The notes below the pieces were generated by a model. The model was not told the DNA's origin. It saw nothing but the letters and a program-made list of their open reading frames with translations, and did not search any database. Shown here one piece after another: positions 3,325 to 31,134 of a stretch of 64,000 nt of DNA (position 1 is the first letter of the stretch; each line of letters starts with the position of its first letter). Source of the stretch: Asterella californica (Eukaryota > Streptophyta > Marchantiopsida > Marchantiales > Aytoniaceae). The stretch lies in assembly GCA_036924285.1 (NCBI GenBank), contig JAYKYS010000005.1, positions 9,238,001 through 9,302,000 of the forward strand, in the 5' to 3' direction. The position numbers and the translations under genes were made by a program.

Positions 3325-5501
3325 TCAAATAGCGTCCAAGATCCAACCACTCGCCATCATACATACAAACTCCAACGAGGCTGCAAAACAGCTTCTATCT
3401 CTTCTAGCAAGAGCACTAGAATAGAACTCGGTTCCCACATCCTCCTGATCATCTATCATTTCTTTCTCATCGTAATACATAGCCCTTGATAACATATCTG
3501 CCACAAGATTGTCCTTTCCTGCAATATGTCTAAACTCTGGGTTCAAGGACTTGATATATGCTATCCACCTCAACATAGCAATATCTGGAGTTGTACAGCT
3601 AATGATCATTCCTAAGAGAGGTAAACAATCTGTCTCCACAACCACAGGTGCTCCTATCAAGTATTCCTTGTCACTCTTCATCGCAGTAACTACTCCCCAT
3701 AGTTTTCTCTTGACCTGAGGGTAGTCTCTCTGCCGTGAACTTAATACCTTAGCACCAAAACGCACCACATATCTATTCCCATCCTCATCGTCTTGCCCTA
3801 CAGCCCATCCAATGCCAATAGGACTAGTATCAACAGTAAGGATAACAGGTCTGCCCAACTCATATGTTACCTTCCGTAGAGTTGGTGGTGAAGACAACAG
3901 ATCCTTCAACTTCTTCATAGACTCGCTTTGCTCCTCTTGCCACTGAAATCTCTGCCCCTTCCTCAGCAACTTGTACAACGGATCTGCTACATGTGCAAAG
4001 TGTGGAATCCATATATGATAAAACACACATGCACCTAGAAACCTTCTCACCTCAGTAACCGATCCACATGTCTCCTTCATCCTTCGGATGGCATCAACCT
4101 TGTTTGGACAAGGTTTCCGACCATAAGATCCACACAGATGTCCCACTATTAACACCTCCTGCTCTCCAAATACAGACTTTGCTCCTGATAAAGTCAAATG
4201 AACCTCCTCCAGTCGACTCAGTATCTTATCACAATCAGCTATGTGATCTGCAACAAACTTACGGCACCCCCTCTGATCCTTTACCTCATTCTTCTCCTCC
4301 TCAGCACACCCTTTGATCGGCACATCATCAAGGAATGGCATAGTTTTTTCAGGAATGAAATCCCTCAAAACTTTATTCATGCCATTCATCATATGTGCTA
4401 CAGAATTCGTAGCACCTTGTGGCAAGGTGCACATCCTTAGTAACCCCAAAGGTGTCCTCATTGTAGTCAAGTCTCTACTCTCAGAGGATAACTGAAACTG
4501 ATCATAACCTGAATATAAGTCTCCCATTGAATAGATAGCACGACCAGCAAAAGCCTCTGCAAATTCGTCTACAATAGGTCCTATACCCATATTCCTGATA
4601 GTCACCTTGTTAACTGGCTGCATATCTTGGATAAATCTCAAAGCTCCACTCTTCTTCGGAACAGTAAACCATCTGCTAGAGTAGGGAGCTATAGATGGTT
4701 CCAAGATACCCATCCTAATCCTCTCATTGAGCAAGTCTATCAGCTTTGGTAGATGAGCTCTAGGTACAGGGATAGGACGTAGATTCCAAGGCACATGCGG
4801 TATAGTAAAGATTACCATAGGTGCAACTACACTTGGATCTACACATCCTACTTCATGTGACTCAAACGCAAACGTCTTACCATGCCTAGATAGCATCTCC
4901 CTGAAGCTCTTCTTCTCTTGCTCAGTAAGAAATCCATCGCCTCCAATCCTCAGCTCCTTTAGTGTTGTTTCTGTGAACTGATGCCCAATTCTTCTCGGTC
5001 CTCTGAGCGTCGGTTCTCGTGCAGCTTGCTCCATCTTCTGATTGTAATCGAGTGGTAAAGACAAAGCCACTGGTTTGACTTTCTTTGCCACTGACTTGTA
5101 CTTGGTCTCCACATACATCTCTTGTCGATCTATAAACTTATCAATTACATCATAAAGCTCCTTGGAGCTCACTCTCACCACTCTATCTACATCATCTATA
5201 GAACTTTCTACTATAGATTTCAACTCCCCTATAGTATCTACCAAATACTGCTCTTCAAACACTCCAGATATGTATTCATCTCCGGCTAACTCTCCACTAT
5301 CCCTCAAAGACTGTTGTACATACTTCACATGTTGCCTCTCAAACCTCTTTAGATTCTCAACCTTCCTATAACACACTGATCCATATGACGTCAATCCTAA
5401 GAAGCTAGTGGATAAAGCTTCCTGCTCTACTGGATCAGGCGAGAATCCTAGCTCTACTGTACCGTTGAAGTCTCGCTCTTCAATGGTACTCTGCCAAAAC
5501 C
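3325..5501 (-). pseudogene. Pol (reverse transcriptase and RNase H) of RLG-A
   Basis: The frame is open on the minus strand from the slippery site at 5502-5496 without needing its own ATG. The only available early start in the long ORF is a TTG, which fits synthesis as a Gag-Pol fusion. The RT palm shows FIQDMQPVNK, LYSGYDQFQL, LPQGATNS and the FLDD active site. The RNase H shows VDTSPIGIGWAVGQDD, ETDCLP and the HIAGKDNLVADMLSRA end. The frame breaks near 3360 just before integrase. RT and RNase H themselves appear uninterrupted. Confidence 0.9.
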
Positions 5502-5502
5502 T
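5439..5502 (-). promoter_or_regulatory. -1 frameshift signal of RLG-A with pseudoknot
   Basis: Read on the minus strand: AGGTTTT at 5502-5496 in codon phase A-GGT-TTT; spacer GGCAGA; stem 1 GTACCATTGAAG (5489-5478) pairing with CTTCAACGGTAC (5470-5459), 11 of 12 pairs with one A/C mismatch; loop AGCGAGA; stem 2 GCGAGA (5476-5471) pairing with TCTCGC (5444-5439). The gag frame stops at TAG 5456-5454, and pol is open in the -1 frame from the heptamer onward. The heptamer is imperfect (A for G in position 1). The fold is inferred from base complementarity; no energy was computed. Confidence 0.75.
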
Positions 5503-10239: not shown

Positions 10240-11530
10240 GAGAGATAATTCCTTCAGTTGTCTCGAATGGAGAAGCTCACACTGAAGAACGACAAAGTGG
10301 AGTTGTTACTACAAGCAGCTAACAATGAGCTACAAAAGGAGTTGGAGCTACTTCTGAAAGATAGGATGGAAGATACTGGACTCACAGCTGATTGGAGAAA
10401 GGTTTCTCAAGCAATGGGTGTACTTGCAAAGTGAGAATATCGAAGAGAAAAGGTGGTGGTAAGGCAAGAAGTGTGGTCAATGTCAATCGTACTACCCCGT
10501 AGGCAGCCAACAATACCTAATGTACAAGTATCTTCTATTTTGTTTCCTATTGTTCTTGTCCCTACAGTTGCACCTCAAAAAGATGTAATAGAGGAATTGG
10601 TAAAAGAGACTTGTAGATTAAGCTAGCAAGGCTAGAGGAGAAAGGGGGAGTACTTGAGAGCAAACTCGCTCCAAAGCAAGGATATGTGCAGAGATGTATT
10701 TGGTGCGATAGCACTGAACATCATCGAAAGGAATGCAGAGACTTTGCTGACGTCTTACGATAAGGAGTGATTTACTGGAAGGAAGGGAAGGTTGCCTTGA
10801 AAGAGACAGTTGAGATCCTCAAAACTAACTTTGGAAGAGGAGGAATGAGGTAAGTTTTAGAGGATTATCTTTCACAACATGCTGAGGTTTCAGTACAAAC
10901 CGCTACCTATGGGATTGAAGTAGTGAAAGATAGAGATAGTACTTCTGAAAAAGAAGTAAAGACGAGTGAAATATGGAGTCATGTTGTGATCATAATGGAG
11001 AAAAGAAAAGCAACAAAGGGTGGATTACTCAAGGTGACCACGACAATCAGAGGTGCTACTGGATGGAGTGATCCAGTAGATACAATGTCTGTACACGCCT
11101 ACTTGGTCAAGAATCAACATGAGACTCTCATGGAGGAGAAGCGTAAGAGAAATGATGCTGGTCCTAGTGAGGAGAGAAGTACTCATAAGAGGTAATTACG
11201 AGGAGAGAAACCTCGGCTAGATACAATACCGGTGCGAGAAGATACCATGGAGGAAGTCTCATCATCTACCACTACTTCGTATCTGGTGATTCTTGGACAA
11301 CCATACATTACGGTTGTAAGAATGGAGACAAAGGTGTTGGATGATGGATCTGCATGTTGGATGTTGGATGATGGATCTGCATATGCTAGGATTAGAAATC
11401 AAGATGGTAAGAGAGCAGTGCAGTTTTTGACCGTACCTCTTAACCATGAGCGCAATCGGGAGAACTTGCGGAGTGGTTCTCTTCCTAGAGTCAATGAAGA
11501 GTTTAAGGATTTTTGCATAAGGCCACTATA
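10240..11530 (+). pseudogene. RLG-B gag, fragment
   Basis: Homology to RLG-A Gag runs from the capsid end (EKLTLKNDKVELLLQAAN) through the zinc knuckle CIWCDSTEHHRKEC to the gag C-terminus ending KDFCIRPL and TAG at 11528-11530. The N-terminal third is absent, and so is the stretch from the KLQSDIE-equivalent through the protease active site. A 24-bp tandem duplication (ttggatgatggatctgcatg unit) repeats the LDDGSA codons near 11338-11385. Stops and frameshifts are numerous. Confidence 0.85.
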
Positions 11531-11575
11531 GAGCAAGGGTATAGTGGTACCAGTACACAAAAGGAGATACTCTCG
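11510..11575 (+). promoter_or_regulatory. Relic of the -1 frameshift signal in RLG-B
   Basis: At the place where RLG-C has TTTTTTC, RLG-B reads tttttgc (11510-11516), then 6 nt, then a perfect 8-bp stem CCACTATA (11523-11530) with TATAGTGG (11540-11547). The downstream partner CTCTCG (11570-11575) survives, but the loop (gagcaaggg) has lost complementarity, so stem 2 is gone. The pol frame in -1 is still open through the stem and resembles the RLG-C protein there (HKATIEQ against HRVTIER). Confidence 0.65.
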
Positions 11576-14228: not shown

Positions 14229-16519
14229 TGTCGTAGGGCGTGAAGTGTGGTCCGAGAATACACGGGGTATCTGACTATGGAGAGATACAACGGAACCCAG
14301 GACCTAATCGATGAAAAACTAATGCTCTCAATATCTAATCTATCAGTCTTTGTCTTGGTTACTACTGATCTAACCTGACCCCAATTGCAACACATGTGCA
14401 TCGCACAAACGACTTGGAGCTCAATCCTATTCTATGTACAAGCAGGGATCATACATGGTACATGTTTGCTTTAGATCTTAAAGCACTTTTCATACAATCT
14501 TTTGGCAATACTCGCTTCACTACTTCTTCTCGACAAACTACCTAAATGTTCAACTCTGACCTTTTACTCTCCGTTGATACGAGCTTCGTTCAGGACGAAA
14601 TCCACAGCAAGGGACGGCCTACTATACAAGCTTCCTAGTGATACAAGGCATATGGGCAGCAAACAACCAGAGAGTTCGGAGCGAGACATCGAAGATAACG
14701 ATACCTCGCAGTTAGGAATTTCTAATCGGCGACTTCAGCAAGGTGTGACATCTTCACTGATAGTGATCACCGTACCAATCTCACAATATAGCTTCTTTGT
14801 CGTCCTTGCAGCACCTCCAAGAAGCCCACCTCCAATCCTCAAGTCGTTTGTTCAAGACCAATCAAGAGATTTAGGCAAAATCTCTCTTCATCTTCCTTCC
14901 GTCCGTTGTAAACTGAACTTTGACAACCTCGTGCTCCCACCTCGATCATCCAATCTGGCTCAAACTTCACAAGAAATCCCCTCTGACCCTTCTCTACTAC
15001 TGTATGAAATTTTAGCCTCAGATCTGAAAGCAATTGTCTGCAATGGATCACACCGTCCGTCTGTGCTAACTCATGAGCTTTACAGACCCCGATGGCAAAA
15101 TCTAGGATCTCTACACATTCTCTTATCCAAATGAGCTGAAATTTCACACGTGGCAAGCTGATAGAGCACACTCCCATCCTGGAAAATTCACTCAGAGATT
15201 CGATCCAATGCTCACGGAGCAACTCAAACTTTGAATCCAAAGAAAACTGCTTTACTTATGTCTCTCAATTGTCACAGCCAACTTCAATTTACCACTTCAA
15301 GATCATATCCAATCCAAATGTAGGAGTATTTTACATCAGTGTAACCACCATGACGTGAACTACCCGATCCCCTTGATAGCTCTTAAAGATCATCTCTCAA
15401 ACTCTCGGATCACTCAAAAATGTGACTCGGGGTACTAATTTGACCCCCCTGACTTTGAACGACCATCACTCTCTCCTCAGAACTCCAAATCGACAGATCC
15501 TCACCTCCAGATTGTAGCCCGACTCGAGAGCTTTCCATAAAGACCCCACACTTCTCAAATGACCCCGGGAATACCTCCAAAACCCTAAAGTTGTCCGTAG
15601 AACTTGAATGAAGTTGATTGATTGAAAGTAGACCAATAAGAAAAGAGATTTGAAAACCAATTTTTTCCCCTACTTGACACCCTAGAATAAACTATAACTC
15701 TAATAATCTCTCACGCCTTTAAGGCATCGGCCTCAACCTTAGGGCATTCACTCCCGTCAGATTATAGAGATCATACTTAACACTTAAGATTCAATACAAA
15801 GTCAAGATGACGACCTTGAATCGACCTACGGTGAAAAACACTACAAAAGAGAATGGAGAAGTCATCACTTGATTACAATATTCCTCGTCAAAGTTCCTTG
15901 CGATCCACGCACGATGACTGATCTTCCGCCGAAAGTGACATCGAATATCCACCCAGACGTTGAAAGGGACGTTGGCTGGAAAGTTTAAGTCCATTCATCC
16001 CGTCAAAGTAAGATATACATAGTCAGGTCTTAGTTCTCCCCGTAGTGACGATTAGTAAGATCACCGGAGTAGGCGAGTCCATCATCCTTCCCATGAACTC
16101 TTCTCCAAAGTAAGCCACGAACCACTGTCGCAAGTGATCGCGGTGGATGCAGTGGAGCTTGATATGAAACGGGTTCGGAGATGAGAGATCCAGAACTCAG
16201 TTTAGTCTTCCATCCATAAATACAATCTTGTAGCTCCCCACTAGATACTAAGACACCCTCACGAAACACCACCTAAAGAAGAAGAATGTCTCACGAACCC
16301 TCGACCCATTATCTTATATCCAAGTTTGACAACAAGAGCCACTCACACGAATGTCCACGGATCACTGAGTCGGCACATCTTGTTATCGTGCGATCTCACA
16401 TCCAGATATCAGTGAAGCACGCTCTCATGCGAGCTACATGAAAGATTCACGAAACACAAAAGAAAACACAACACACATTTTATACTGAGTTCACATGTGA
16501 GACATTTCACAACACGACA
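14229..16519 (-). repeat. 3' LTR of RLG-C
   Basis: The sequence runs from TGTCGTAGGG to AACACGACA on the + strand, 2291 bp, against 2211 bp for the partner. Differences include an 80-100 bp stretch near 15040-15160 that is shortened in the partner. A TATAAAAT on the minus strand lies at 16484-16477, about 36 nt from the outer U3 end. Confidence 0.9.
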
Positions 16520-16589: not shown

Positions 16590-17835
16590 ACAACGTCTTC
16601 GTCCTCCTGAATAATGTCGTCGTTATCAGCATCTTCAATAACCAAGTCATCTTCGTCGTCTTCCAAGAGATCAAACTCCACTTCGACTTCTTCCACGCTT
16701 ATCTCTTCATCTCGCTTCTTGAAGAGTTTCACACGCTTTCTTGCAATGAGAACTTTGAGCTCTGATCCATCAAGCTCCCAAAGTGAATATGTAGTATTGT
16801 TATGTACAACAAGAACCACATATGGTCCAAACCACAGCTTAGAGAATTTTCTAAGCGCATTGTGTTGGTTGTCCAAGCTACTATCATACACCAACACCCA
16901 ATCGCCTTCCTTAATCTCCTTTGGCTGTAACCAATGACGATCATCAAACCTGCCCTTATTCTTCCACAGTGCCTTCCTCAACCTATCAATTGTAATCTCT
17001 ATGTCCTCGAGTCTCATTTCCAACTGACGAATCCGAAGTGCAAGAAGATCTTCCTTAGACATATTATCCTCCCAAGGTAGAACGCTCCAAATAGGTATTT
17101 GCTCTTCGATGGACATGATAGGATTCTATCCTTGCATTAGCTCCGTTGGCATGTATCCAGTCACTGAACTATGTGTATAGCGATCAGCCCCTAGAGCAAA
17201 TGGTAAGAACCTCGGGCACTCTTTCACTCTCTCTCTACAAGCCTTCACAATGGCTTTCACAATAGGAGGATGACCTCTCTCACTCTTAGCATACCCTTCT
17301 AGATTGTAGGACGTAGCAAGAGCTAGTTTCATCCCTCGTCTCTCAAAGAACTGCTTAGCTTCAAGATTATTCAACTCTCCACGATCAGCTGCAATCTTCC
17401 CAACACACCCGTATCTACAAATCACATTCTCCAACAAGAATCTGCAAACTCCTTCAGTGGACTTTATACGTAAAGCTCATCCTTCCACTTGATTGGACAA
17501 ATCCTCTCGTGCAAGAGCCAAATACCGCATTTGTCATATTCCCACTAGCATGATAACTAGATCTATCATCCATTTGTAATGGATTACAAGCGGATACGTA
17601 GGTGCAAATCGTCTCGATGTCTTATCTCTGAGTACATCTGACAAGTCTGGCACGATTCTACAAACCTGATAACATCTCTATACATGTTACGCCACCAGTA
17701 CTTCTCCTTGAGCTTTGTGAAGGTTGCATAAATACCTCGATGTCCAGCCCATAAACTATCATGGAACTCTCGGATAAGTTGCATCTGCATCTCTTTCTTG
17801 CACACAACCCTTTGTGACACGTCAAAAATCACATA
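16590..17835 (-). pseudogene. RLG-C integrase, second (downstream) module
   Basis: On the minus strand: zinc-binding region (EFHDSLWAGHRGIYATF, CQTC), catalytic core (VGKIAADRGELN, then the NLEGYAKSERGHPP region), linker SIEEQIPIWSVLPWED, GPY motif FGPYVV and acidic tail ending DIIQEDEDVV. It starts at SQRVVCKKEM, directly after the GPYV of the upstream module. Frames are broken in several places. The duplicate at 17840-18830 is clearly related but diverged, so this is not a recent tandem copy. Confidence 0.85.
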
Positions 17836-17839
17836 CGGA

Positions 17840-18830
17840 CAAACTCATCACTTAGAGAATTTTCTAAGCGCACTGTGTTGGTTTCCAAGCTACTATCGTA
17901 TACCAACACTCAATCTCCTTCCTTAATCTCCATCGGTCTTAACCGATGACGCTTATCAGATCTGTCTTTGTTTCTCAAACGCATCTCTTTCAACTTCTCC
18001 ACTGCAATCTCTACATCTTCAAGTCTTCTCTCCAGTTGATGAATTCGAGCAGCAAGAAGATCTTCTGTAGACATACCATCCTCCCAAGATATAACACTCC
18101 AAGTGGGTATGTGCTCCTCAATGGACATGATAGATTTCTACCCTAGCATCAACTCCGTCGACATATATCTCATGACTGAATTATGAGTCGAACGATCAAC
18201 TCATAATGCAAATGGAAGAAATCTTGATCATTCTCTTGCCCTCCCCTTGCAAGCTTTCACAATAGGAGGATGACCACGTTCACTCTTCGCATTTCCTTCC
18301 GGATTGTAGATTGAGATGAGAGCTAACTTCACACCACATCTCTTGAAGAACGCTTTAGTCTCATCAGTGTTCAGCTCCTATTGATCAGCCGTGATCTTCC
18401 CAACACAACCATATCTACAAACCACATCCTCCAACAGAAATTTGCAGACTCTCTCAGTGGATTTTGTCTGTAAGGCTCGCCCTTCCACTTGGTGGACAAA
18501 TCCTCACGTGCCAAAACTAGGTATCGCCTGTCATATACCACCCGATATAATAACAAGATCTACTACCCACTTATAATTCATTGCAAGTGGATAAGCATGA
18601 TGTAATCCATCTGGATGTCGAATTCTTGAATACTCTTGACAAGTTTGGCATGTCTCTACAAATTGAACTACATCTCTATACATGTTACGCCACCAATATC
18701 TCTCTTTCAGCTTTGTAAAAGTGACATAAATACCTCTATGCTCTGTCCACAAGCTCTCATGAAACTCCTGCATGAGTAACTTCTGCATGTCAACATTGCA
18801 AGCGACCCTTTGTGGCATCTTACCACCTTG
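17840..18830 (-). pseudogene. RLG-C integrase, first (upstream) module
   Basis: The minus-strand reading begins MPQRVACNVDM with the zinc-binding domain (EFHESLWTEHRGIY, CQTC), then the core and linker SIEEHIPTWSVISWED, and stops in the GPY motif, where it is joined to the second module. It lacks an acidic tail. It directly follows the RNase H end, so it is the module in the native position. Confidence 0.82.
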
Positions 18831-18839
18831 CTTAGCTCA

Positions 18840-19252
18840 CTTTCACAAATAACCACCTTGTAGCAAGTAGTTATAAGCCTCCCTCTTGGTTTGTTTAAAG
18901 TGTGCATCACTCCATCTTGACTATATAGTCAACAAGCTTAGATAGCGTCCTATGTCTATTGATTCTCCTTCATATAGCTCCTCCATGAATGATTTTGAAT
19001 GCTCACTCTCACCTCCTTGAGCTCTACAAAAAACAGTAGTACTAACGTCTTTTGTATCCTCAACAATCTCCTCCTCATATCTTGCACTAGACAACATATC
19101 AGCTACTAGGTTGTTCTTCCCCGCTATGTGTTTGAACTCGAGATTTAAAGACTTGATGTAAGCAATCCAGCGTAGCATAGCAATATCAGGGGTGTTACAT
19201 TTTGTAATCATCCCTAACAGCAGTAAATAATCTATTCTACTACTACTGGCGC
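18840..19252 (-). pseudogene. RLG-C RNase H, distal part
   Basis: The minus-strand reading is ETD-equivalent, LLGMITKCNTPDIAMLRWIA, HIAGKNNLVADMLSSA and linker FMEELYEGESIDIGRYLS. It is cut at 19252 by the RLG-D insertion and continues at 28519. Joining the two sides with one GCGC restores an alignment with RLG-A (IGAPVV) of equal length. Confidence 0.88.
19249..19252. repeat. Target duplication GCGC, left of RLG-D
   Basis: GCGC precedes the 5' LTR and recurs at 28519-28522 after the 3' LTR. RLG-A at the same codons (ggtgctcc) shows that the unoccupied RLG-C site was ggcgctcc, so exactly four bases were duplicated. Confidence 0.85.
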
Positions 19253-20734
19253 TGTCGTGATGTGAATCATTTGACATAGTAAATGATTCACTTATCACTG
19301 CTGTCGCGTTACTTAGCGCATGTTATTTCTACTCCGACACTTGACGTTTAGTAGTCTTAGAAGTTAGCTCTGTACTGTTCTTAGTCTTTTATGCTTATGG
19401 TTGACACCTTTTGCATATGGTGTTAACTCTGTCAAATATTTTGGATCCTAGTAGGTTGGTAGTATGACATTTATCTTGTTCAAGCATTCGTACGCTTGTG
19501 TGAGTAAATTCATACTTATCTATGATACTCAATGTACATGACTTAGATTTATCATGTAGATAGGGGGTTTGAACTCATGGGTTGTACTTACTTGTCGCCC
19601 ATGCACGCTTTCTAGCTGATTTAAGTTATTTTTCGGGGCTGCGTGTCGTTTTAGGTAGTTTAAGTTTTACGCTGGCACTCTAGGGAGCTTGACGTGGTAG
19701 CCTATGAGTAAAACTAAGTTGCCACGTGGTTTAGGGTACTAAAGGACAACCAAGTGGAGCTATGAACTCCCATTGGTCTGTTTTTGTCTTTTGTTAAACT
19801 CTAAATTTAGAAACAGAGCTCTAGAGTGGAGTTCGAGCAATTTGTGAGGGCACTTCGAAATCTGAGAGCATGGGGAGATAGAGCTCGTCGAGCCAAGCAC
19901 TGTCAGCGAAAAGTTTGATCGATTTGAGGCAATAAACAAGGAGTTATGGCTGATTGAAGTTCGATTTGTGTCAAAATTGAAGCACTTCTGTTCAATTTGG
20001 GGTTTTGAGTGTCATTTGCAGCAGAATCGAGGAAAGCGCTTCAAAACTTCGTGGCTGTGATCACTGTCAGCAGGGCTACGAGTGTCTCCAAATTTTTATG
20101 TCGATTGAGTCAGTGAGTAATTCAGGGCGACCGCTGAAGTAGAGGGGGTCCGAAAAGCTCTCAATCTGGAGCAGCAACTTCAGAGAGCGAGATCTGGAGT
20201 TCTGTGTGGAATCAGGAGGCCCAACTTCACAAGAGTGTTTATCAAGCTGTGTACTGCAAATCCTGTAAGAAATTCTCAAAGTGATCGAGCCAATTCCTTG
20301 TTATAGGTCGAAATAGCTGTCTGGGTACCAGAAACTGCCGTAATTTCTCTACTCAGAAAGTTTCTGCTCATATCTTAGTGCTCTGAATTGATCTGAAGCT
20401 GAAATTTCGTATGTGTATCTAGTAGAACCTTGTTTACATGTAGGAGGAGTTCTGAAGTCTGAACCTTCACATATTTCTCAATCCGGAGTGTCAAAGTTCG
20501 CCATCTGATCTTATCATTGCTAGTTAAGCCTGAACTCTGCTTCCTGAACTTATCAGAAGAGCCTAGAGACTTACATGAGTGTTTTCAGCTTCACCTTGAG
20601 ACCTGAAGCCTATCCTGTGAGTAGACCAGCCACAGCCAAGAGCCCAACGCTTCCCCGAGTAGATTGAACATAGCCTTCAAGCTCATATCACAGCCAGAAG
20701 GTTCGCCCTTCCCAGGAAGACTCTCAACCTGACA
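19253..20734 (+). repeat. 5' LTR of RLG-D
   Basis: TGTCGTGATG to CCTGACA. Compared with the RLG-A LTR it has an extra 49 bp at its outer edge, made mostly of a palindrome (GTGAATCATTT, 8 nt, AAATGATTCAC at 19262-19291). The A-type start TGTCGCG lies inside at 19302. Confidence 0.96.
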
Positions 20735-20735
20735 T

Positions 20736-20755
20736 CTGGTGCTTCCACTGAGAGA
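20736..20755 (+). promoter_or_regulatory. Primer-binding site region of RLG-D
   Basis: The LTR is followed at once by tctggtgcttccactgagag. TGGTGCTTCC would be the primer-binding site. It differs from TGGTGAACTCGACGTG in RLG-A and RLG-C after the fifth base, so D appears to use another primer. The tRNA was not identified. Confidence 0.5.
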
Positions 20756-20802
20756 TCTTGGGGTGATTGATTGAGAAGGTTGAGTTGCTACAAGGAGAAG
20801 AG

Positions 20803-23358
20803 ATGGATCGCAAGAGCGGAGCTGCTGCTGCTGCCTCTGGGGCTGGAGCATCAACGTCTACTGCTGCACCGTCAACTGCACCTGCGTCTTCTACAGCGAC
20901 ATCTGCATCTGGTCTGGACACGGCTGAGATCTTGAAGACGCTTGCGGCCCTAGTTCAACAGCATCCGATCGTTGGAGGGGGTGAGTTAAAATCCACCAAG
21001 GCTTTGCAAGCGATAGTGAATAGGTGTGGAAGGTTTGAAGGTAGAGATATTTCTAGATATCTGCGTGAGTATAGAGGAGAGATGGAGCTGGTTAGGGTTA
21101 CTGATGCTGAGATGATAGCAAGTTTTGAGTTAGCTGTCATTCCTGAGTTGCGGGACCAAGTTAGGGATGTACAGAGAAGAAATCTTGGAGTCTGGATGAG
21201 TTTTGAGCGATCTCTTCGAGAGGAGTTTCTTGAGGAGGATTCAGAGAGAGTTACTAGAAGGACATTTCTAGACTGGGTTGAGCAGCAACCTGGTCGTATT
21301 ATGAGCCTGAGTGAGTTGCTGAGAGAGTTTGATCGGAGATACCGACAACTTTCAACTCTAGAGCGAATCACCCTAGATGCTAGGAAAACAGAGCTTTTCC
21401 TGCAGGCTACTGATGATGCTACGGCAGATCGGTTATGTTTTATGTTGGCCGATCGATCTGCTGAGGGAGGTGTTACTATGGATTGGGGGAGAGTCGAGGA
21501 TGCTGTGGCTGTACTGACAAGGCAGAGGAGGGGAAGAGTGGCTGTGGGAGGACGTCCGCTTGCAGAAGTGGTCACTCCACCTTATGCTGCTCCTCAAGTA
21601 CAGCAACCCTTGGCCCCTGCTCCCAGACCTATTGTCCCAGCTGCAGTTCCTTTGATGCCAGTTGTGCCAGCTCCAGCACAAAGGGCACCTGTTCAGAGAC
21701 CTGCGGAGAACCATGGTCAACAGAATCAGATTGAAGACCTGATTCGGCAGATGCGAGAGCTGAAGGTAGAGCTAGCTGGATTGCAGAGAGAGCAGCCACC
21801 GGCGCCTGCTGCTGCACGTCCAGGAGGAGCTCCGGTTCGTAGATGTATTTGGTGTGACAGTCCTGATCATTTCCGAGGAGACTGTCAAGAGCTCACAGTT
21901 GCTTTGCGAGATGGTGTGGTTCGCTATCAGAACGGTAGGCTGCACCTTTCTTCTACTGGAGAGCCGTTGAGCACGCAGTTTGGACGAGGAGGCATGAGGA
22001 GTCTACCTCAGATTGCTGCGGCGGCAACTGTACATGCATTGATGGCACCACCGGTAAATCCTGATGTATATGCTGGACATATTGAGGTTTCTTCTAGTCC
22101 TACGTTGCTAGATAGGACTGCTGAGAAGAGTATTGCCCCCGTTCCTTCTGAAGTACTGAAGAGGGGAGCCGAGTCTATTCGTAGGGTCACAGGATGGGGA
22201 GATCCTGTAGATGCTGCTTCTATCAGAGCATTCTTGGATGTAGATAGACACGTTCATTGGCATGATGCTTCTGTGGAGGAGAAGAGGCGGCGAGAAGCCT
22301 CTGAACTTGATACTGGAATTCCTGAGGAGACTGGGGATAGACGGAGAGTCACAAGGAGACGAGCGGCTCTTCCTGAAGACATCCCGTCTACTTCTGCAGC
22401 TCCTCCACCTGTGCCAGGTCCTATGGAGGATGTGCAGAGATCCCAGCAGGAGCCAACGACTGCTGGTAGGCGGTTTACTGCCCAAGAGAAAGGGAAGGGA
22501 CCGGCTTACAAGTTGGCAGCTGATATTGAAACTTCTACTGATCTGAAGAGTATCTTGGAGCAGAGGATACTGGATGCGCGAATCGAGTTTTCTCTTCGAG
22601 AAGTTCTTGGTATTGCAAAGAGGGAGTTTCACGAACTGATCATCGACATCATCAAGCGCAAGAGACAGGTGATGTCCGAGCAGGTAGAGAGCCAGATGAT
22701 AGATGTAGTAGGAGCTTCTCTGAATGATGCAGAGTTTGGAAAGGTGCATTTTCAGGAAGCTGATGACAAGAGATACCAGCAAGAAGCGTTGGTTGCTGGT
22801 ACCGACACTATTGAGTTCAACGATGAGGAAGCTGGTGAGGAGAGTCCAGCTAGTGAAAGTGATTTCAGAAAGAGACATTGGGCTCGTGCCACAACTGCTA
22901 CGCGAGTTCGTCTTGGAAGTTTGGCTGAACCTGTTGCTGCTTTAGTTGATCACGGATCTGAGATCAACATCATGTCATGGGAGGTGTACGAGAGAGGTCA
23001 GTGGCCTATCGAGCTAAACCATGGTTGGGTGTTACGTGCTGCAAACAACCAGAAAGGTGAGCTATACGGCGCTTGTCCTAACGTGAAGGTGAAGATAGGT
23101 GATGTGGATGTGGATCAACATTTCTTCGTGCAATCTTCTGCTTCATATCCTGTGATTCTTGGTCAGCCTTATATCACTGCGGTTCGAATGGAGACCAAGG
23201 TGATGGATGATGGATCTCATTATGCTAGGATCCGTAGTCCAGATGATAGACGTTCTGTGCAGTTTCTGACCGTTCGTACGAACCACGAACGAAACCGTCA
23301 AACTTTGAGGGATTCTCCTATCTGTAGAGGTAAGGGTTTTCTGAAACCACTCTCGTAG
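20803..23358 (+). CDS. Gag-protease of RLG-D
   Basis: First ATG in frame is at 20803 (MDRKSGAAAAA); the open frame upstream has only TTG. The protein is 851 residues. An Ala/Ser/Thr/Pro-rich N-terminus is followed by the capsid-like region (SFELAVIPELRDQVRDVQRR, EEDSERVTRRTFLDW), a Pro/Ala-rich linker, a CCHC knuckle CIWCDSPDHFRGDC, a basic domain, the helix REVLGIAKREFHELIIDII, and a retropepsin with ALVDHGSEINIMS and ILGQPY. It binds and packages RNA and cleaves the polyprotein (family knowledge). The frame ends at TAG 23356-23358 inside the frameshift signal. It is the only uninterrupted gag in the window. His in the D-H-G-S site, where Thr or Ser is usual, is also seen in RLG-A. Confidence 0.95.
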   Translation: MDRKSGAAAAASGAGASTSTAAPSTAPASSTATSASGLDTAEILKTLAALVQQHPIVGGGELKSTKALQAIVNRCGRFEGRDISRYLREYRGEMELVRVTDAEMIASFELAVIPELRDQVRDVQRRNLGVWMSFERSLREEFLEEDSERVTRRTFLDWVEQQPGRIMSLSELLREFDRRYRQLSTLERITLDARKTELFLQATDDATADRLCFMLADRSAEGGVTMDWGRVEDAVAVLTRQRRGRVAVGGRPLAEVVTPPYAAPQVQQPLAPAPRPIVPAAVPLMPVVPAPAQRAPVQRPAENHGQQNQIEDLIRQMRELKVELAGLQREQPPAPAAARPGGAPVRRCIWCDSPDHFRGDCQELTVALRDGVVRYQNGRLHLSSTGEPLSTQFGRGGMRSLPQIAAAATVHALMAPPVNPDVYAGHIEVSSSPTLLDRTAEKSIAPVPSEVLKRGAESIRRVTGWGDPVDAASIRAFLDVDRHVHWHDASVEEKRRREASELDTGIPEETGDRRRVTRRRAALPEDIPSTSAAPPPVPGPMEDVQRSQQEPTTAGRRFTAQEKGKGPAYKLAADIETSTDLKSILEQRILDARIEFSLREVLGIAKREFHELIIDIIKRKRQVMSEQVESQMIDVVGASLNDAEFGKVHFQEADDKRYQQEALVAGTDTIEFNDEEAGEESPASESDFRKRHWARATTATRVRLGSLAEPVAALVDHGSEINIMSWEVYERGQWPIELNHGWVLRAANNQKGELYGACPNVKVKIGDVDVDQHFFVQSSASYPVILGQPYITAVRMETKVMDDGSHYARIRSPDDRRSVQFLTVRTNHERNRQTLRDSPICRGKGFLKPLS

Positions 23359-23402
23359 GACGGGATAGCGAGAGTGATGGATCTACTGCTACTATGATCC
23401 CG
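23334..23402 (+). promoter_or_regulatory. -1 programmed frameshift signal with H-type pseudoknot (RLG-D)
   Basis: Slippery heptamer GGGTTTT at 23334-23340 in codon phase G-GGT-TTT; spacer of 7 nt; stem 1 CACTCTCG (23348-23355) with CGAGAGTG (23369-23376), 8 perfect pairs; stem 2 CGGGAT (23361-23366) with ATCCCG (23397-23402), 6 perfect pairs. Loops are 5, 2 and 20 nt. Gag stops at 23356. The -1 frame is open from 23334 (GGG TTT TCT GAA) into pol. The geometry is that of viral -1 sites. RLG-A and RLG-C have equivalent folds with other sequences. Confidence 0.85.
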
Positions 23403-25018
23403 CTTGAGCAGCCTGAGGGATCACAGGAGGTTGATGAAAAGGCTGCTCAAGATTCAGAAAGTAGTTGCACTGTGCATAGTTGGAAATCTGGGTTGATGGC
23501 TTTCAGTTCTGATGATTGGAGTGAGTTCACACGGATGGAGGATTTGACTGAGAAGAGTAGAAGGCAGATGGAAAAGTGTGCAGCAAATCTGCGTTGTACA
23601 GGAGTTCTGAAGGAAGATGAGATGATTTCTGGTGTTTATGAGGAGTTTGTAGGTGTGCAGTCTTTTGTTCGTTGGCTGGATGGTGTAGATAGGTTGATGG
23701 AACAGATGGGAGGTAGGGTGGTGATCCCCATCCATTCTCGTGAAGTCTATGAGGAAATTATCTCATACTTGCGATATCGTCCTCACCCGAGACTGGAGAA
23801 TGGATGGAAGGATGCAGTCTGTTGGTGTGGCTTACATCAGGAAGCGGAAGTACACGCCAAGTATAAAGCTGTAGCGAGGAAGGTGAGACCTGTGGCGACC
23901 CAATTACCTGTTGATTCTCAGCAGCAGATGGAACTAGCGGCTGCTGAACCTGTGCTTAGAGATCCTACACATGTAGGACACAAGTTTACTCAAGAGACAC
24001 TCGAGCAGCTCCAGATAGGAGGGGGTGGCTTCTTGACTGAAGAGGAGAAACGAGCTTTTGAGCAGATGATAGTGAGCCATGGTAAGGCATTTTCTTTCTC
24101 AGCTGAGGAGATAGGTTGTGTGGATCCTAGTGTGATAGCTCCGATGGTTATCTTCACTGTTCCTCACGTACCTTGGGACTTGAAGCCGATTCCAGTCCCT
24201 CGTGCCTTGCTACCGAAGGTGATTGAGTTACTGAAGGAGAGGATGCAGATGGGTATTCTTGAACCATCTATGGCTCCGTACTCTAGCCGATGGTTCACAG
24301 TACCTAAGAAGACAAGAGCTCTGCGCTTCATCCAAGACTTGCAGCCTGCCAACAACATCACGATTCGAAACGTTGGAACAGGACCTATGGTTGATGAATA
24401 GCTGAGGCGTTTGCTGGAAGGTCAATCTATTCTATTGGAGATCTGTTTTCAGGTTATGATCAGTTTCAGCTTGCTTTGGAGAGTAGAGACTTGACTACCA
24501 TGCGTACACCTTTGGGGTTGATGCGGATGTGTACTCTTCCTCAGGGTGCGACAAACTCAGTAGCCCATATGCAGAATGCGATGCATAAGGTGTTACGAGA
24601 GTTTGTACCTGAGGTCACTATCCCATTTCTGGATGATATTCCCATGAAAGGCTGTCCGATGGAAGACAAAGACGAAGCTGTGACTTCTGATGGATGCAGA
24701 AAATTCGTTGTAGATCACATTCGAGATGTGGAGAAGATTCTGATGCGTTTGGAGGAGGTACACCTCACTCTATCAGGTACCAAATCTCGTTTTGGTATGT
24801 CAGAGATTGTGGTGGTGGGTCATTTGTGTGGTACTTTTGGGAGGCGTCCGAACCTAGAGAAGGTAGATGCTATAGCAAGGATAGCTGACTGCACCAACAT
24901 CACTGAGGTTCGACGGTTCTTGGGAGCTTGTGTGTTCTTTCGTGTGAGTATTCCTCATTATGCACACATTGCCGAGCCTCTGTATGCACTTCTGAGAAAG
25001 GGAAGGAGGTTTACTTGA
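23335..25018 (+). pseudogene. Pol of RLG-D: linker and reverse transcriptase
   Basis: Entered by -1 frameshifting: the frame is open from the slippery site. The linker carries KYKAVARKVRPVATQLPVD. RT fingers and palm show PHVPWDLKPIPVPRA, GILEPSMAPYSSRWFTVPKK, FIQDLQPANN, LPQGATNS and FLDDIP. At 24395-24401 the VDEFAEAFAG codons read GAATAGCTGAGG, a 1-nt loss that creates TAG; the rest continues in another frame from before 24476 to TGA 25016-25018, which replaces a Trp codon. LTRs this similar suggest the defects arose at or soon after insertion, or are assembly errors. Confidence 0.92.
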
Positions 25019-26191
25019 CGGCAAGAACATCATGAGACGATGGAGCAGCTGAAGGAGATTCTGAAGTCCCCACCTATACTAAGGAGGCTTAGCTACGAGA
25101 GCGGGAGACCTGTGGTACTGACTGTTGATACGAGTCCAAAGGCGATTGGATGGGCAGTTGGCCAAGAAGATGCAGAAGGTGTGCGGTTTGTTTCAAGGTT
25201 TGGAGCTCGGATCTTAACAGATAGACAGCGTAACTATCCTCAAGTGAAGCGTGAGTTGTGGGGAGCTGTTACCGCTATGAAGGTAGATCGAGAGTTCTTG
25301 ATAGGAGCCCGGGTGATATTAGAAACAGATTGTTTGCCTTTGTTGGGTATGATAGCAAACCGCAATACACCAGACATAGCAATGCTGCGATGGATTGCTT
25401 ATGTCCGGAGTCTGAACCCTGAGCTAAAGCATATAGCAGGGAAGGACAATCCAGTTGCAGATATGTTGTCTAGGGCTCGTTATACAGATGAGGATGAGAT
25501 GTTTGCAGAGGTGGAGAATGAAGAGAAGAGAGACGTTTGGTGCCGAGTTGGTCAGCAGACTTCAGACTTGGAACCACTGCCGTTCAATGAGGGGTTCTAC
25601 TCAGAAAAGTTCCGCGATATTGGATTTTATCTGAGTTCGTTATCCAGGAGAGAAGGATGGAGTGATGCAGAGTTCAAGGAGATCATACGGAAGGCGTACA
25701 GCTACCTTCTACGTGAAGGTTATCTGTGGAAACGTCCGAAGAGAAGAGACGGGATGCTTGCTAGAGTGGTGGATGATCAACCGACGAAGCTGAATCTGTT
25801 GAAAGAGTTTCATGACACCTTGTGGGCTGGACATCGTGGAGTATGGGCTACTTACACGAAGATGAAGGAGCGTTACTGGTGGAAGGGTTTGTATCAAGAC
25901 GTGGTGGACTTTGTTGGGTCGTGTCTGCACTGCCAATTCTACTCTAAAGTCCGTTACAGAGATGGACTTGTACCTACTTATCCACCTAGTATCCATTTTC
26001 AATGGGTTCTTGATCTTGTGATGATGCCACCGGGGTTATGGGGGATGCGTTATTTGGTGTTAGCTCGAGAGGATCTTTCCAACTATGTGGAGGGACGAGC
26101 ACTACGGACGAAGACTACAGAGAGTATCTGCAGGTTCGTGCTAAGATATCATCTGTCGTTATGGATCGGTTGGGAGATTACGTGCAGATAG
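25019..26191 (+). pseudogene. Pol of RLG-D: RNase H and first half of integrase
   Basis: This continues in the frame of the preceding RT segment after the TGA. RNase H shows VDTSPKAIGWAVGQED, ETDCLPLLGMI and HIAGKDNPVADMLSRA. Integrase follows with EFHDTLWAGHRGVWATY and CLHC (HHCC), then VLDLVMMP carrying the first catalytic Asp. Near 26145 two bases are missing relative to RLG-A, so the frame runs out at 26191. Confidence 0.92.
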
Positions 26192-26990
26192 AGGTGAGTT
26201 GAGAGGCGCTGAAGTGAAGGAGTTCTTTGCTCGTTATGGAGTAAAGCTTCGACTTACCACTGCTATGAATCCAGAGGGCATTGGTAAGAGTGAACGAGGA
26301 CACCCTTCTATTGTTCATGCTTTAGTGAAAGCATGTGATGGTAGACCTAGAGAATGGCCGAGATTACTTCCATTTGCTTTGTGGGCGGATAGAACTACAC
26401 ACTGTACTACGACTGGCTATATGCCAGTTGAGCTTATGTTGGGTCAGAAACCGATCATGCCTGCTGAAGAGTACTTTCCTACGTGGGCTACGCTACCGTG
26501 GGAAGATGGTATAGATCGTGCTTCACTCCTAAATTTACGTATAAGGCAGTTGGAGCGAAGGGAGGAGGATCTTGCTGATGCGCAGGAGAGGCTGAAGGTG
26601 GCTCGAGTCAGAAACAAGGAACGTTTTGACAAGACTCACCGACTACGACCGAAGCCAATACATGTTGGTGACTGGGTTCTGGTATATGATAGCACGTTGG
26701 AGAATCAGCACTCTACACTTCGTAAGTTCTCTCGAAGATGGTTCGGGCCTTATGTTGTGCTAGATGTGTATGAGAATGCCACCTATAGTTTGCGTGAGTT
26801 GGACGGTACTCTTTTGAAGCTATCTGTGGCTGGCAAACGTGTGAAACTGTTCAAGAGACGCGGAGGGTCAGTTGAGTTATTCAACTTTCTGGAGTTAGAG
26901 CTGAGGGCAACAAGAGACGAAGACGTCCCAGTGTCTGATGAGGCTGAGGCGGAGGAGAGCGATGATGATGAGGATCAAACAGAAGACTGA
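26150..26990 (+). pseudogene. Pol of RLG-D: integrase core and C-terminal domain
   Basis: Frame-shifted continuation: ADRGELRGAEVKEFF (second Asp), NPEGIGKSERGHPS (Glu), then LRPKPIHVGDWVLVYD, FGPYVVLDVYENATYSLREL and KRVKLFKRR. It ends in an acidic tail (DEAEAEESDDDEDQTED) without a chromodomain. The TGA stop at 26988-26990 is followed by a 46-nt stretch up to the LTR, the last 16 nt of which form the polypurine tract. Confidence 0.92.
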
Positions 26991-27020: not shown

Positions 27021-27036
27021 GTTTAGAGGGGGTGGA
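27021..27036 (+). promoter_or_regulatory. Polypurine tract of RLG-D
   Basis: gtttagagggggtgga abuts the TG of the 3' LTR at 27037, matching the tracts of RLG-A and RLG-C. Confidence 0.9.
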
Positions 27037-28518
27037 TGTCGTGATGTGAATCATTTGACATAGTAAATGATTCACTTATCACTGCTGTCGTGTTACTTAG
27101 CGCATGTTATTTCTACTCCGACACTTGACGTTTAGTAGTCTTAGAAGTTAGCTCTGTACTGTTCTTAGTCTTTTATGCTTATGGTTGACACCTTTTGCAT
27201 ATGGTGTTAACTCTGTCAAATATTTTGGATCCTAGTAGGTTGGTAGTATGACATTTATCTTGTTCAAGCATTCGTACGCTTGTGTGAGTAAATTCATACT
27301 TATCTATGATACTCAATGTACATGACTTAGATTTATCATGTAGATAGGGGGTTTGAACTCATGGGTTGTACTTACTTGTCGCCCATGCACGCTTTCTAGC
27401 TGATTTAAGTTATTTTTCGGGGCTGCGTGTCGTTTTAGGTAGTTTAAGTTTTACGCTGGCACTCTAGGGAGCTTGACGTGGTAGCCTATGAGTAAAACTA
27501 AGTTGCCACGTGGTTTAGGGTACTAAAGGACAACCAAGTGGAGCTATGAACTCCCATTGGTCTGTTTTTGTCTTTTGTTAAACTCTAAATTTAGAAACAG
27601 AGCTCTAGAGTGGAGTTCGAGCAATTTGTGAGGGCACTTCGAAATCTGAGAGCATGGGGAGATAGAGCTCGTCGAGCCAAGCACTGTCAGCGAAAAGTTT
27701 GATCGATTTGAGGCAATAAACAAGGAGTTATGGCTGATTGAAGTTCGATTTGTGTCAAAATTGAAGCACTTCTGTTCAATTTGGGGTTTTGAGTGTCATT
27801 TGCAGCAGAATCGAGGAAAGCGCTTCAAAACTTCGTGGCTGTGATCACTGTCAGCAGGGCTACGAGTGTCTCCAAATTTTTATGTCGATTGAGTCAGTGA
27901 GTAATTCAGGGCGACCGCTGAAGTAGAGGGGGTCCGAAAAGCTCTCAATCTGGAGCAGCAACTTCAGAGAGCGAGATCTGGAGTTCTGTGTGGAATCAGG
28001 AGGCCCAACTTCACAAGAGTGTTTATCAAGCTGTGTACTGCAAATCCTGTAAGAAATTCTCAAAGTGATCGAGCCAATTCCTTGTTATAGGTCGAAATAG
28101 CTGTCTGGGTACCAGAAACTGCCGTAATTTCTCTACTCAGAAAGTTTCTGCTCATATCTTAGTGCTCTGAATTGATCTGAAGCTGAAATTTCGTATGTGT
28201 ATCTAGTAGAACCTTGTTTACATGTAGGAGGAGTTCTGAAGTCTGAACCTTCACATATTTCTCAATCCGGAGTGTCAAAGTTCGCCATCTGATCTTATCA
28301 TTGCTAGTTAAGCCTGAACTCTGCTTCCTGAACTTATCAGAAGAGCCTAGAGACTTACATGAGTGTTTTCAGCTTCACCTTGAGACCTGAAGCCTATCCT
28401 GTGAGTAGACCAGCCACAGTCAAGAGCCCAACGCTTCCCCGAGTAGATTGAACATAGCCTTCAAGCTCATATCACAGCCAGAAGGTTCGCCCTTCCCAGG
28501 AAGACTCTCAACCTGACA
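27037..28518 (+). repeat. 3' LTR of RLG-D
   Basis: Same length as 19253-20734 with two mismatches found by eye. It is followed by GCGC (28519-28522), the right copy of the target duplication. Confidence 0.96.
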
Positions 28519-30354
28519 GCGCTCCAATCAAATAGTCATTTTCGGCTTTCATAGCTGCAACTACTCTCCATAACTCTCTCTTCACTTTGAGGATAGTTCT
28601 TATATCTCTAACTCAACACCTTTGCTCCAAATCTGATTGCAAACCGATTCTCTTCTTCATCATCATGTCCTACTGCCCATCCAATGGCTATCGGGCTAGT
28701 ATCATCAATAAGTATCACTGGTTTGTTGTCCTCATAACTCACATGACGAAGTACAAGTGGAGAAGATAACAACTACTTCAATCTCTGAATCGCCTCAATA
28801 TGTCTCTACTCCCATACAAACCTTTTGTGCTTTCTCAACAAATCATAAAGAGGATCTGTCACATGTGCAAAATGCGGAATCCACACATGATCAAAGACAT
28901 AAGCTCCAAGAAATCTTCTCACCTCTGTTGGGCTACAAGTATCTTTCATCCATTGTATGACATCCACTTTACTGAGATCAGGTTTGTGTCCAAACCATTC
29001 ACATAGGTGTCTCACAATCACAACATCTCGCACTCCAAATGAAGACTTGGCACTTGATAGTGTTAAGCGTGTCTCTTCAAGTCGTGATAAAATTTGATCA
29101 CAATCTGAAAATGTGATCAGCAACAAAGTTTCTACACCTCTTTTGATCCATTATCTCATCTTTCTCCTCCTCTACGCATCTCTTAATTGGAATGTCATCC
29201 AAGAAAGACATGGTCTTCTCGGGAATGAACTCTCGGAGAACTTTGTTCATTCCATTCATCATGTGCGCTATTGAGTTTGTTGCTCTTTGTGGTAGCGTGC
29301 ACATTTTGACCAGCCCCAACGGTGTCCTCATCGTGGTGATATCTCTACTCTGTTCAGCAAGTTGAAACTGATCGTATCCAGAGTAAAGATCTCTTATAGA
29401 ATAAATAGCCCTTCCAGCAAACGCTTCAGCAAACTTCCTTACGATAGGTCCTATGCATGTATTTCTGATTGTCACTTGATTCACATGTTGCATATTTTGG
29501 ACGAATCGTAATGCACCACTCTTTTGATATTGTAAACCAACGACTAGAGTATGGTGCAAATGATGGTTCTAAGATCTTTATCTGCATCTTCTCCTTCAAG
29601 AGCTCTATGAGTTTCAGTAGATGCGCTCTAGGTACTAGAATTGACCTCAAGTCTCAAGGAGCATCTAGAACTGCGAGTATGATCATTGATGTCACAATGC
29701 TATGATCTACACGTCTGATTTCTGAGGCTTCAAAAGCAAAAGCTTTCTCATGTCAAGTTAACATCTCCCCAAACATGTTCTCCTCCATAAGTAAAAGAAA
29801 ATCTGCAGAACCAACCTTCAACTCCTTGAGTGTAGCTTCTGTGAACTTGTGACCAACTCGGCTAAGATCTCTCAAGCTTTTCTCCTTCGAAGATTGTTGG
29901 ACTTGCTGGATAGAATCACTATGTAATGGTTGAGCAACAGGTTTTATCTTTTTTGTCTATCATTTTGTACTAGTCTAGACTCTAACTTCAAGATCTAAGA
30001 ATGACTCTATGATTGTACATAGGTCCTTAGAGTGTACTTCCACCACATGATCTTCATCTTCTTGCTCATCCATAGCAAGCTCATCCATGAAATCTCCCAA
30101 TCCTAATTCCAGATAAACACATTTTATGTTATCATCCTCTTCAAGCACACCAACTCTTTTCAGACATTTTTCAATTTTTTGCACAACCTTCTACTCTCAC
30201 TTCTACAAGTTAGCAAGTCGTGTATGAGTAGCAAACCACTCCTAGAAAATCTTACAACTCTTATACAAAAGACACTTCTCTCCGCTAGCGAGAGTACCTT
30301 CTTTTGTGTATCGATATCACTATACTCTCGTTCTATAGTGACCCTGTGAAAAAA
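28519..30354 (-). pseudogene. RLG-C RNase H (proximal), RT and pol linker
   Basis: Minus-strand pieces: pol N-terminal region with VEVHSKDLCTIIESFL, RT with ILEPSFAPYSSRWFTI, FVQNMQHVNQ, LYSGYDQFQL, LPQRATNS and SFLDDIP, and the start of RNase H around IGWAVGHDDEEEN. Many frameshifts. It is interrupted at 28519 by RLG-D and resumes at 19252. The -1 frame is open from the slippery site at 30354 and its protein resembles that of RLG-B. Confidence 0.9.
30290..30354 (-). promoter_or_regulatory. -1 frameshift signal of RLG-C with pseudoknot
   Basis: Minus strand: TTTTTTC at 30354-30348 in phase T-TTT-TTC; spacer ACAGGG; stem 1 TCACTATA (30341-30334) with TATAGTGA (30324-30317), 8 perfect pairs; loop GAACGAGAG; stem 2 CGAGAG (30330-30325) with CTCTCG (30295-30290), 6 perfect pairs. 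Loops are 3, 0 and 21 nt. The gag TAG lies at the stem 1/loop border, as in RLG-D. The sequence of both helices differs from RLG-A and RLG-D. Confidence 0.82.
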
Positions 30355-31134
30355 TCATTGAACTCTTGAGTGACTCTAGGTAAAGAACCACTCTCTAAGT
30401 ACTCTCGGTTGCGTTCATGGTTAGGAGGTACAATCAAGAACTACATTGCTCTCTTACCGTCTCGACTTATAATATGAGCATAAGCGGATCCATCATCCAA
30501 CATCTTGATCTCCATCCTTACAGCAGTAATGTAAGGATGACAGAATACAATTGGATATGATATACTGTGTTGAACAAAGAAGTTCTGTTCAATAGCTACA
30601 TCTCCAACCTTCACTCTTACATCAAGACAAGCTCAATAGAGTTCTCCTCGTGTGTTATTCGCCGCCCGGATCATCCAACCATGCTCTGTGTCAATGGATC
30701 ACTTTCCTTGCTTGTAGACATCTTTAGACACAATGTTAACCTCAAATTCATGATCAATGAGAGCAACCATCAGATCTGCCAGATCTCCTACCTTCATCAA
30801 GGTTCTGTAGTAGCTCTAGCCTAATACCCCCTAGTGTAGTGATTGGAAATCTTCTTCATCTTCATTTATAGTAAATCGAACCTTCCGGATGGTGCAACAT
30901 TCAGCTAACTCTAGCTCCTCTTCTTCCGTTATTCTTATGTCTAGAGCATTAGTCATAGCCATCTCTCTTGTCAATTGTCTCTTTCGCTTGATGATGTCAA
31001 TAATGACATCATGAAACCCCATCTTGGCAATTCTGAGTATCTCTCGTAGAGTAAACTCAATCTTCATATTGAGCACTCTCTCTCTTCTAACACCCCCTTC
31101 AAGTCTGTAGCTGTTTCAATATCTGATTGCAGCT
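30355..31134 (-). pseudogene. RLG-C gag C-terminus and protease remnant
   Basis: The minus-strand reading begins KLQSDIETATDLK, then LREILRIAKMGFHDVIIDII, a mutated protease site (ALIDHEFEVN in place of DHGS), then the QPYITAV-like end. The preceding part of gag is absent: homology stops abruptly at 31134, just upstream of KLQSDIE. Confidence 0.85.

Follow-up and report, generated by a model that had tools for sequence, protein, structure and literature searches.

Analysis of a 64,000-nucleotide stretch of DNA from Asterella californica (hereafter, the window) suggests that the junction between the two coding regions of RLG-D, a plant Ty3 long terminal repeat (LTR) retrotransposon, is a programmed −1 ribosomal frameshift signal separating Gag-protease from reverse transcriptase (RT)-RNase H-integrase; the probability of this reading is put at about 0.88. 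According to the proposed mechanism, ribosomes would pause at a structure downstream of a slippery heptamer, on which two tRNAs would slip back by one base; a minority of the ribosomes would then make a Gag-protease-Pol fusion, and the remaining ones would stop and release Gag-protease. The frame relation, the heptamer and the structure are kept in RLG-D copies and in divergent families; the signal is thus conserved and more than chance would give, and its function we infer from sequence. The sequence-only reading, in which RLG-D sets its Gag:Gag-Pol ratio by −1 frameshifting, is supported by layout, copies and families as far as the shift itself is concerned. Its products had to be amended to Gag-protease and Gag-protease-Pol, and the setting of a Gag:Gag-Pol ratio is retained as a suggestion.

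The following parts of RLG-D were located in the window:

19249..19252, no strand: left target-site duplication, GCGC
19253..20734, + strand: 5′ LTR, 99.865% identical to 27037–28518 over 1482 nt
20737..20752, + strand: putative primer-binding site, beginning TGGTGCTTCC, recognised by eye
20767..23358, + strand: ORF1 from stop to stop, with gag, zinc knuckle and aspartic protease
23334..24401, + strand: start of pol, the −1 frame ORF from the heptamer
24398..25018, + strand: pol piece with RT, in a different frame and with TGA at its end; broken in the window copy
25019..26191, + strand: pol piece with RNase H and integrase zinc-binding domain (domain matches)
26145..26990, + strand: final pol piece, in a different frame and without a chromodomain match
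27025..27036, + strand: polypurine tract AGAGGGGGTGGA, recognised by eye
27037..28518, + strand: 3′ LTR
28519..28522, no strand: right target-site duplication, GCGC

Given the identity of the LTRs and the GCGC flanking both sides, the insertion is young. The zinc knuckle and the protease of ORF1 were assigned from motifs read by eye (VDHGSEIN and LGQPYI for the protease) and from relatives and their names; ORF1 also matches DUF4100 in Pfam with a score just below the cut-off, and a literature search returned no paper on DUF4100. The order protease-RT-RNase H-integrase is that of the Ty3/gypsy superfamily. In the window copy, pol is disrupted three times, by a frame change near 24398–24401, by TGA at 25016–25018 and by a frame change within 26145–26191. 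Because its pol is broken, this copy is unable to make a complete Pol, and the claim therefore concerns the family. RLG-D is nested in an older relative on the opposite strand (element E), the sequence of which resumes on both sides (17819–19253 and 28521–31137). These flanks align to another element of the window, element A (2190–3652 with 17819–19253, and 3650–4991 with 28521–29859).

In all five cases with both ends located (the window copy and four of the 10 fetched copies), the target-site duplications have the form NCGN, a published mark of the Phygy lineage (PMC6317226, as far as its text was available). No Pfam match to a chromodomain was obtained in the scanned ORFs of two elements. 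Based on the NCGN targets, this result and the moss relatives, the element looks like a member of a non-chromovirus Ty3 lineage resembling Phygy. Like RLG-D, Phygy is a short non-chromovirus element, coding nearly throughout, with moss relatives and NCGN targets (Neumann et al. 2019, PMC6317226); it is described there as Physcomitrella-specific, and the available portion of that text gives no frame relation, heptamer or pseudoknot.

The junction of the window copy is composed of the following elements:

23334..23340, + strand: slippery heptamer G GGT TTT, the same in 30 of 30 fetched copies
23341..23347, + strand: spacer of 7 nt
23348..23355, + strand: stem 1, 5′ arm, CACTCTCG
23356..23358, + strand: stop codon TAG of gag (ORF1), within the structure
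23361..23366, + strand: stem 2, 5′ arm, CGGGAT, in the loop of stem 1
23369..23376, + strand: stem 1, 3′ arm, CGAGAGTG
23397..23402, + strand: stem 2, 3′ arm, ATCCCG, 20 nt past stem 1

The heptamer and its phase, the spacer, both stems, the stop and the open −1 frame had been proposed from the letters of the stretch and were recovered. ORF1 reads AAG GGT TTT at this site, so that an in-phase X XXY YYZ heptamer lies at the overlap of the two ORFs; stem 1 has 8 bp, with one extra U·G pair possible, and stem 2 has 6 bp. From the heptamer, pol is open for 355 codons in the −1 frame, compared with 7 codons in frame 0 and 2 in the +1 frame, and a −1 frame stop (TAA, 23331–23333) is found immediately 5′ of the heptamer. 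Folding no better than that of shuffled sequence had been named as a result that would speak against the signal. When the 110 nt following the heptamer were dinucleotide-shuffled 2000 times, an equally good pseudoknot arose once. When every position of the internal region of RLG-D was scanned, two other sites matched the pseudoknot score of the junction; the region contains four slippery-like heptamers, and a strong pseudoknot (−24 kcal/mol or better) is predicted only at the one in the junction.

The 516.7 Mb host genome was searched for copies, and 40 copies were scored out of 3761 candidates. All 40 match the junction region of RLG-D over the full 1101 nt, at 98–100% identity. In the 30 fetched copies, the window copy included, the heptamer and the −1 frame are unchanged; this frame stays open over 157 codons or more in each of them and, in 13, beyond the fetched stretch (>722 codons). 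One fetched copy has a C to T change in stem 2, where a wobble pair remains. The agreement among copies is non-independent because the copies share descent. These data bear on the possibility that a decaying copy acquired the frame change through a chance indel and that the heptamer and the stems are coincidental. The three further disruptions in pol of the window copy fit such decay, but the junction length is shared by all 40 scored copies, the −1 frame stays open for more than 722 codons in the 13 mentioned, and the same frame relation in other families excludes the descent of all copies from one dead copy. A chance indel thus has next to no probability; in the form of an indel private to the window copy, it is refuted by the copies and the other families.

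In addition to these copies, 20 further D-type loci were hand-picked for spread. GG[G/A]TTTT is present in 19 of the 20 and, altogether, in 49 of 50 D-type loci, two of which have it as GGATTTT; the exception, L065, lacks one T and its −1 frame is closed. In L071 the −1 stop lies later. The motif pattern used for D-type loci missed L039 and L043, and L065 was excluded from the comparison of stems. Among 18 distinct D-type junctions, all stem 1 cells are paired, and one stem 1 pair is fully compensated (U:A in 10 and C:G in eight), which, taken alone, would be modest evidence for pairing. The core of stem 2 is kept in D-type relatives with wobble changes, while the two outermost pairs are absent in some rows; in one D subfamily, stem 2 moves by one pair and still forms. 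Substitutions were counted from distinct rows in register (25 upstream and 40 downstream, of 48). In D-type copies, 33 substitutions 5′ of the junction are synonymous and 11 are not, which fits coding in frame 0. On the 3′ side, the ratio of synonymous to other substitutions is 49/75 for the −1 frame, 38/86 for frame 0 and 30/94 for the +1 frame, so that −1 is weakly favoured.

Junctions of the same kind were found in other elements of the window:

5439..5502, − strand: junction of element A, with AGGTTTT (5502–5496), a 6-nt spacer, an interrupted 11-bp stem 1 and a 6-bp stem 2
11507..11548, + strand: junction of degraded element B, with GGATTTT, a stem 1 and a weak stem 2
30289..30354, − strand: junction of degraded element E, with TTTTTTC (30354–30348) and stems 1 and 2

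The −1 frame of element E is open for 64 codons from the heptamer. The AGGTTTT of the window's element A (5502–5496, minus strand) differs from the GGGTTTT found in five of five fetched copies of its family. In another family, F2, GGATTTT followed by TAG is present in four of four copies. Pfam analysis of eight other ORFs of the window gave a single match, to RT, and no family reached the cut-off in an Rfam scan of the window.

Plant-like retrotransposon contigs (L001–L006) were also observed within cyanobacterial metagenome-assembled genomes (MAGs) of a public genome set, and the contigs filed there encode the same proteins as the RLG-D lineage. Those of the Trichormus MAG we take to be from the fern Azolla, and the contig of the Synechococcales MAG presumably comes from a moss; both assumptions are based on known symbioses and on the likeness of proteins. 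In L001, L003, L005 and L006, GGATTTT is followed by a stop and the −1 frame is open, whereas L002 reads GGATTTC and its −1 frame runs on for 234 codons, with further decay thereafter. L004, a fern-like relative, is an exception, with pol in the +1 frame past a run of six T (L004:2497–2510), which may be either a variant or a sequencing error. Across 14 junction rows, pol is in the −1 frame in 13; L004 and L065 are the exceptions across the comparisons. Inspection of L015 and the overlapping L018 revealed no such junction in either contig, and searches of viral contigs, and of genome contigs with one ORF as the query, gave no matches.

Structures were compared across 11 junctions with a purpose-written pseudoknot scanner, which allowed one mismatch, no bulge and spacers of 4–10 nt and used simplified stacking energies. 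At 10 of the 11, a predicted stimulatory structure better than chance lies 5–9 nt downstream of the heptamer, although the agreement in spacer length is partly imposed, because only spacers of 4–10 nt were admitted. The pseudoknot predicted at these 10 junctions is better than more than 99% of shuffles (equalled by at most 17 of 2000); that of L006 was equalled by 246 of 2000 and does not rise above shuffles with a scanner that admits no bulge. When six elements were scanned, the junction was equalled at 0–2 further sites per element, and L005 contains one further slippery-like heptamer with a pseudoknot of −24 or better. Most families spell their stems differently (those of B and E are alike), so that the layout must have been rebuilt.

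Most of the structural signal comes from stem 1. A rival reading is that the slip is real but needs no structure other than stem 1, stem 2 being incidental. With stem 1 given, 6 to 370 of 2000 shuffles, depending on the junction, do as well as stem 2, which is weak in B, E, L001, L002, L003 and L006; the inconstancy of its two outermost pairs among D-type rows points the same way. On the other hand, stem 2 combined over the 11 junctions gives p ~2 × 10−7, assuming an independence that holds incompletely; D, A, L004, L005 and F2 each form it from different letters, and the one-pair shift in the D subfamily preserves it. A signal that works through stem 1 alone is considered unlikely.

A frameshift assisted by a pseudoknot was also compared with ways of reaching Pol that leave the heptamer aside. 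Readthrough of the stop codon, or re-initiation after termination, could also yield Pol and would suit the position of the ORF1 stop directly at the structure, and an AUG is present within ~10 codons in L001 and in some moss pol proteins. Readthrough, however, would remain in frame 0, where each of the 14 rows meets a stop within 2–15 codons of the heptamer; for re-initiation, no AUG position is shared, and the initial 60 codons of the −1 frame of element A contain no AUG. On these grounds, both routes were rejected as extremely unlikely.

Alternatively, splicing of a short intron could join the two frames, a route published for Ogre. D-type copies carry a donor-like AG/GTAAGG, which in RLG-D (23328–23335) overlaps the start of the heptamer. 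This sequence is absent in five of the 20 further D-type loci (L062, L067, L069, L070 and L072), in the A family and in F2, where the heptamer and the structure persist, and a conserved splice donor is thereby ruled out. Gene models of Riccia and Physcomitrium run from protease into RT, and some of them may represent real transcripts or single-frame copies, but in many such models conserved residues of the protease or the junction are missing, and the models disagree with one another. Splicing is accordingly regarded as very unlikely. In the Riccia gag-pol models (P0121–P0150), protease or junction residues are often skipped, as if predicted introns bridged the change of frame.

The frameshift reading is in line with the lengths of related proteins. 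The gag-protease of RLG-D is closest to proteins of Physcomitrium (a moss) and Riccia (a liverwort) among the best 120 of 212 matches. Of these 120, 31 were judged from their names to be gene models (of Riccia, Physcomitrium or Adiantum) and set aside; the other 89 relatives were analysed. In all 89, ORF1 ends 57–77 residues past the motif LG[QEM]P[YF]I, and 67 terminate in DF, GF or NF, the endings expected of GG(A/G)TTTT followed by a stop. When chains of 831–2644 residues were admitted in a further search, separate pol chains of ~890–1230 residues were among the matches listed; the chains longer than 1254 residues are Riccia gene models (among 120 of 149 matches). Seventeen chains contain protease together with a loose RT motif; three of them, of ORF1 length, match by chance, and the other 14, beyond ORF1 length, are all models from Riccia. 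Had intact relatives carried gag and pol in a single frame, this would have counted against the signal; no intron-blind single-frame gag-pol chain was seen among the 120 of 212 and the 120 of 149 matches listed.

Taken more widely, it appears reasonably likely that Phygy-like Ty3 elements of non-seed land plants (liverworts, mosses and ferns) have an old, lineage-wide strategy for Pol, a −1 shift at G GRU UUU aided by a compact pseudoknot. This retrovirus-like gag-protease / −1 / pol layout would be hidden by predicted introns in annotations. Retroviral −1 signals use H-type pseudoknots, and in alpharetroviruses the protease lies in the gag frame. The heptamer, the short spacer, the H-type pseudoknot (predicted in RLG-D) and the choice between Gag(-protease) and Gag-Pol are features that retroviruses would share with RLG-D; the former have animal hosts and the latter belongs to a plant Ty3 lineage, and the two are likened by layout. 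The best solved relatives of the pol ORF of element A are from yeast Ty3 (PDB 7q5b and 4ol8; E-values, 7.5 × 10−38 and 9 × 10−38), which uses +1 frameshifting (PMC5009743, in the text available), in contrast to the −1 shift proposed here.

According to a 2003 survey, as related in the available part of a 2016 review (PMC5009743), plant gag and pol in separate frames were known only in the +1 arrangement. The two-frame plant LTR elements described in this review share the use of two frames with the RLG-D lineage, and sireviruses have a covarying stem near the junction; their pol is in +1, whereas that of the RLG-D lineage is in −1 and follows a canonical heptamer. Two ORFs, with GAG or GAG-PROT first, occur in some plant groups, and the frames of Ogre are joined by splicing (PMC6317226, partial text); frameshifting or a spliced GAG message are given as the general strategies in the accessible text of PMC12786077. 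No report of a −1 signal in plant Ty3 elements was found among the titles and abstracts listed from the open-licence literature.

Parallels for the heptamer exist in plant viruses. In the portions of the sources available, plant viruses shift at GGGUUUU and GGAUUUU, each closely followed by a stop; GGAUUUU functions in PEMV, with 112% obtained when GGGUUUU replaces it (PMC4737148), and G_GGU_UUU ranks among the most shift-prone heptamers (PMC5009743). Families with GGATTTT thus depart from X XXY YYZ yet match the PEMV site. BYDV and PEMV RNA2 resemble the RLG-D lineage in having GGGUUUU or GGAUUUU, a stop at once or after 3 nt, and plant ribosomes (PMC4737148, PMC5009743, both in part); they differ in using a bulged stem-loop with long-distance pairing, whereas a local H-type pseudoknot is predicted for the RLG-D lineage.

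The excess of Gag over Pol in plant LTR elements is explained by splicing in some cases and left open in others, and a −1 signal conserved across a deep lineage would offer a directly testable answer for one group. If functional, the junctions would also provide many natural pseudoknots acting on plant ribosomes, and bryophyte gene models that cross such junctions may be artefacts.

The window also contains a diverged repeat pair (14229–16519 and 36499–38709; 88–89% identity) and a tandem repeat pair (16810–17819 and 17823–18817; 73% identity).
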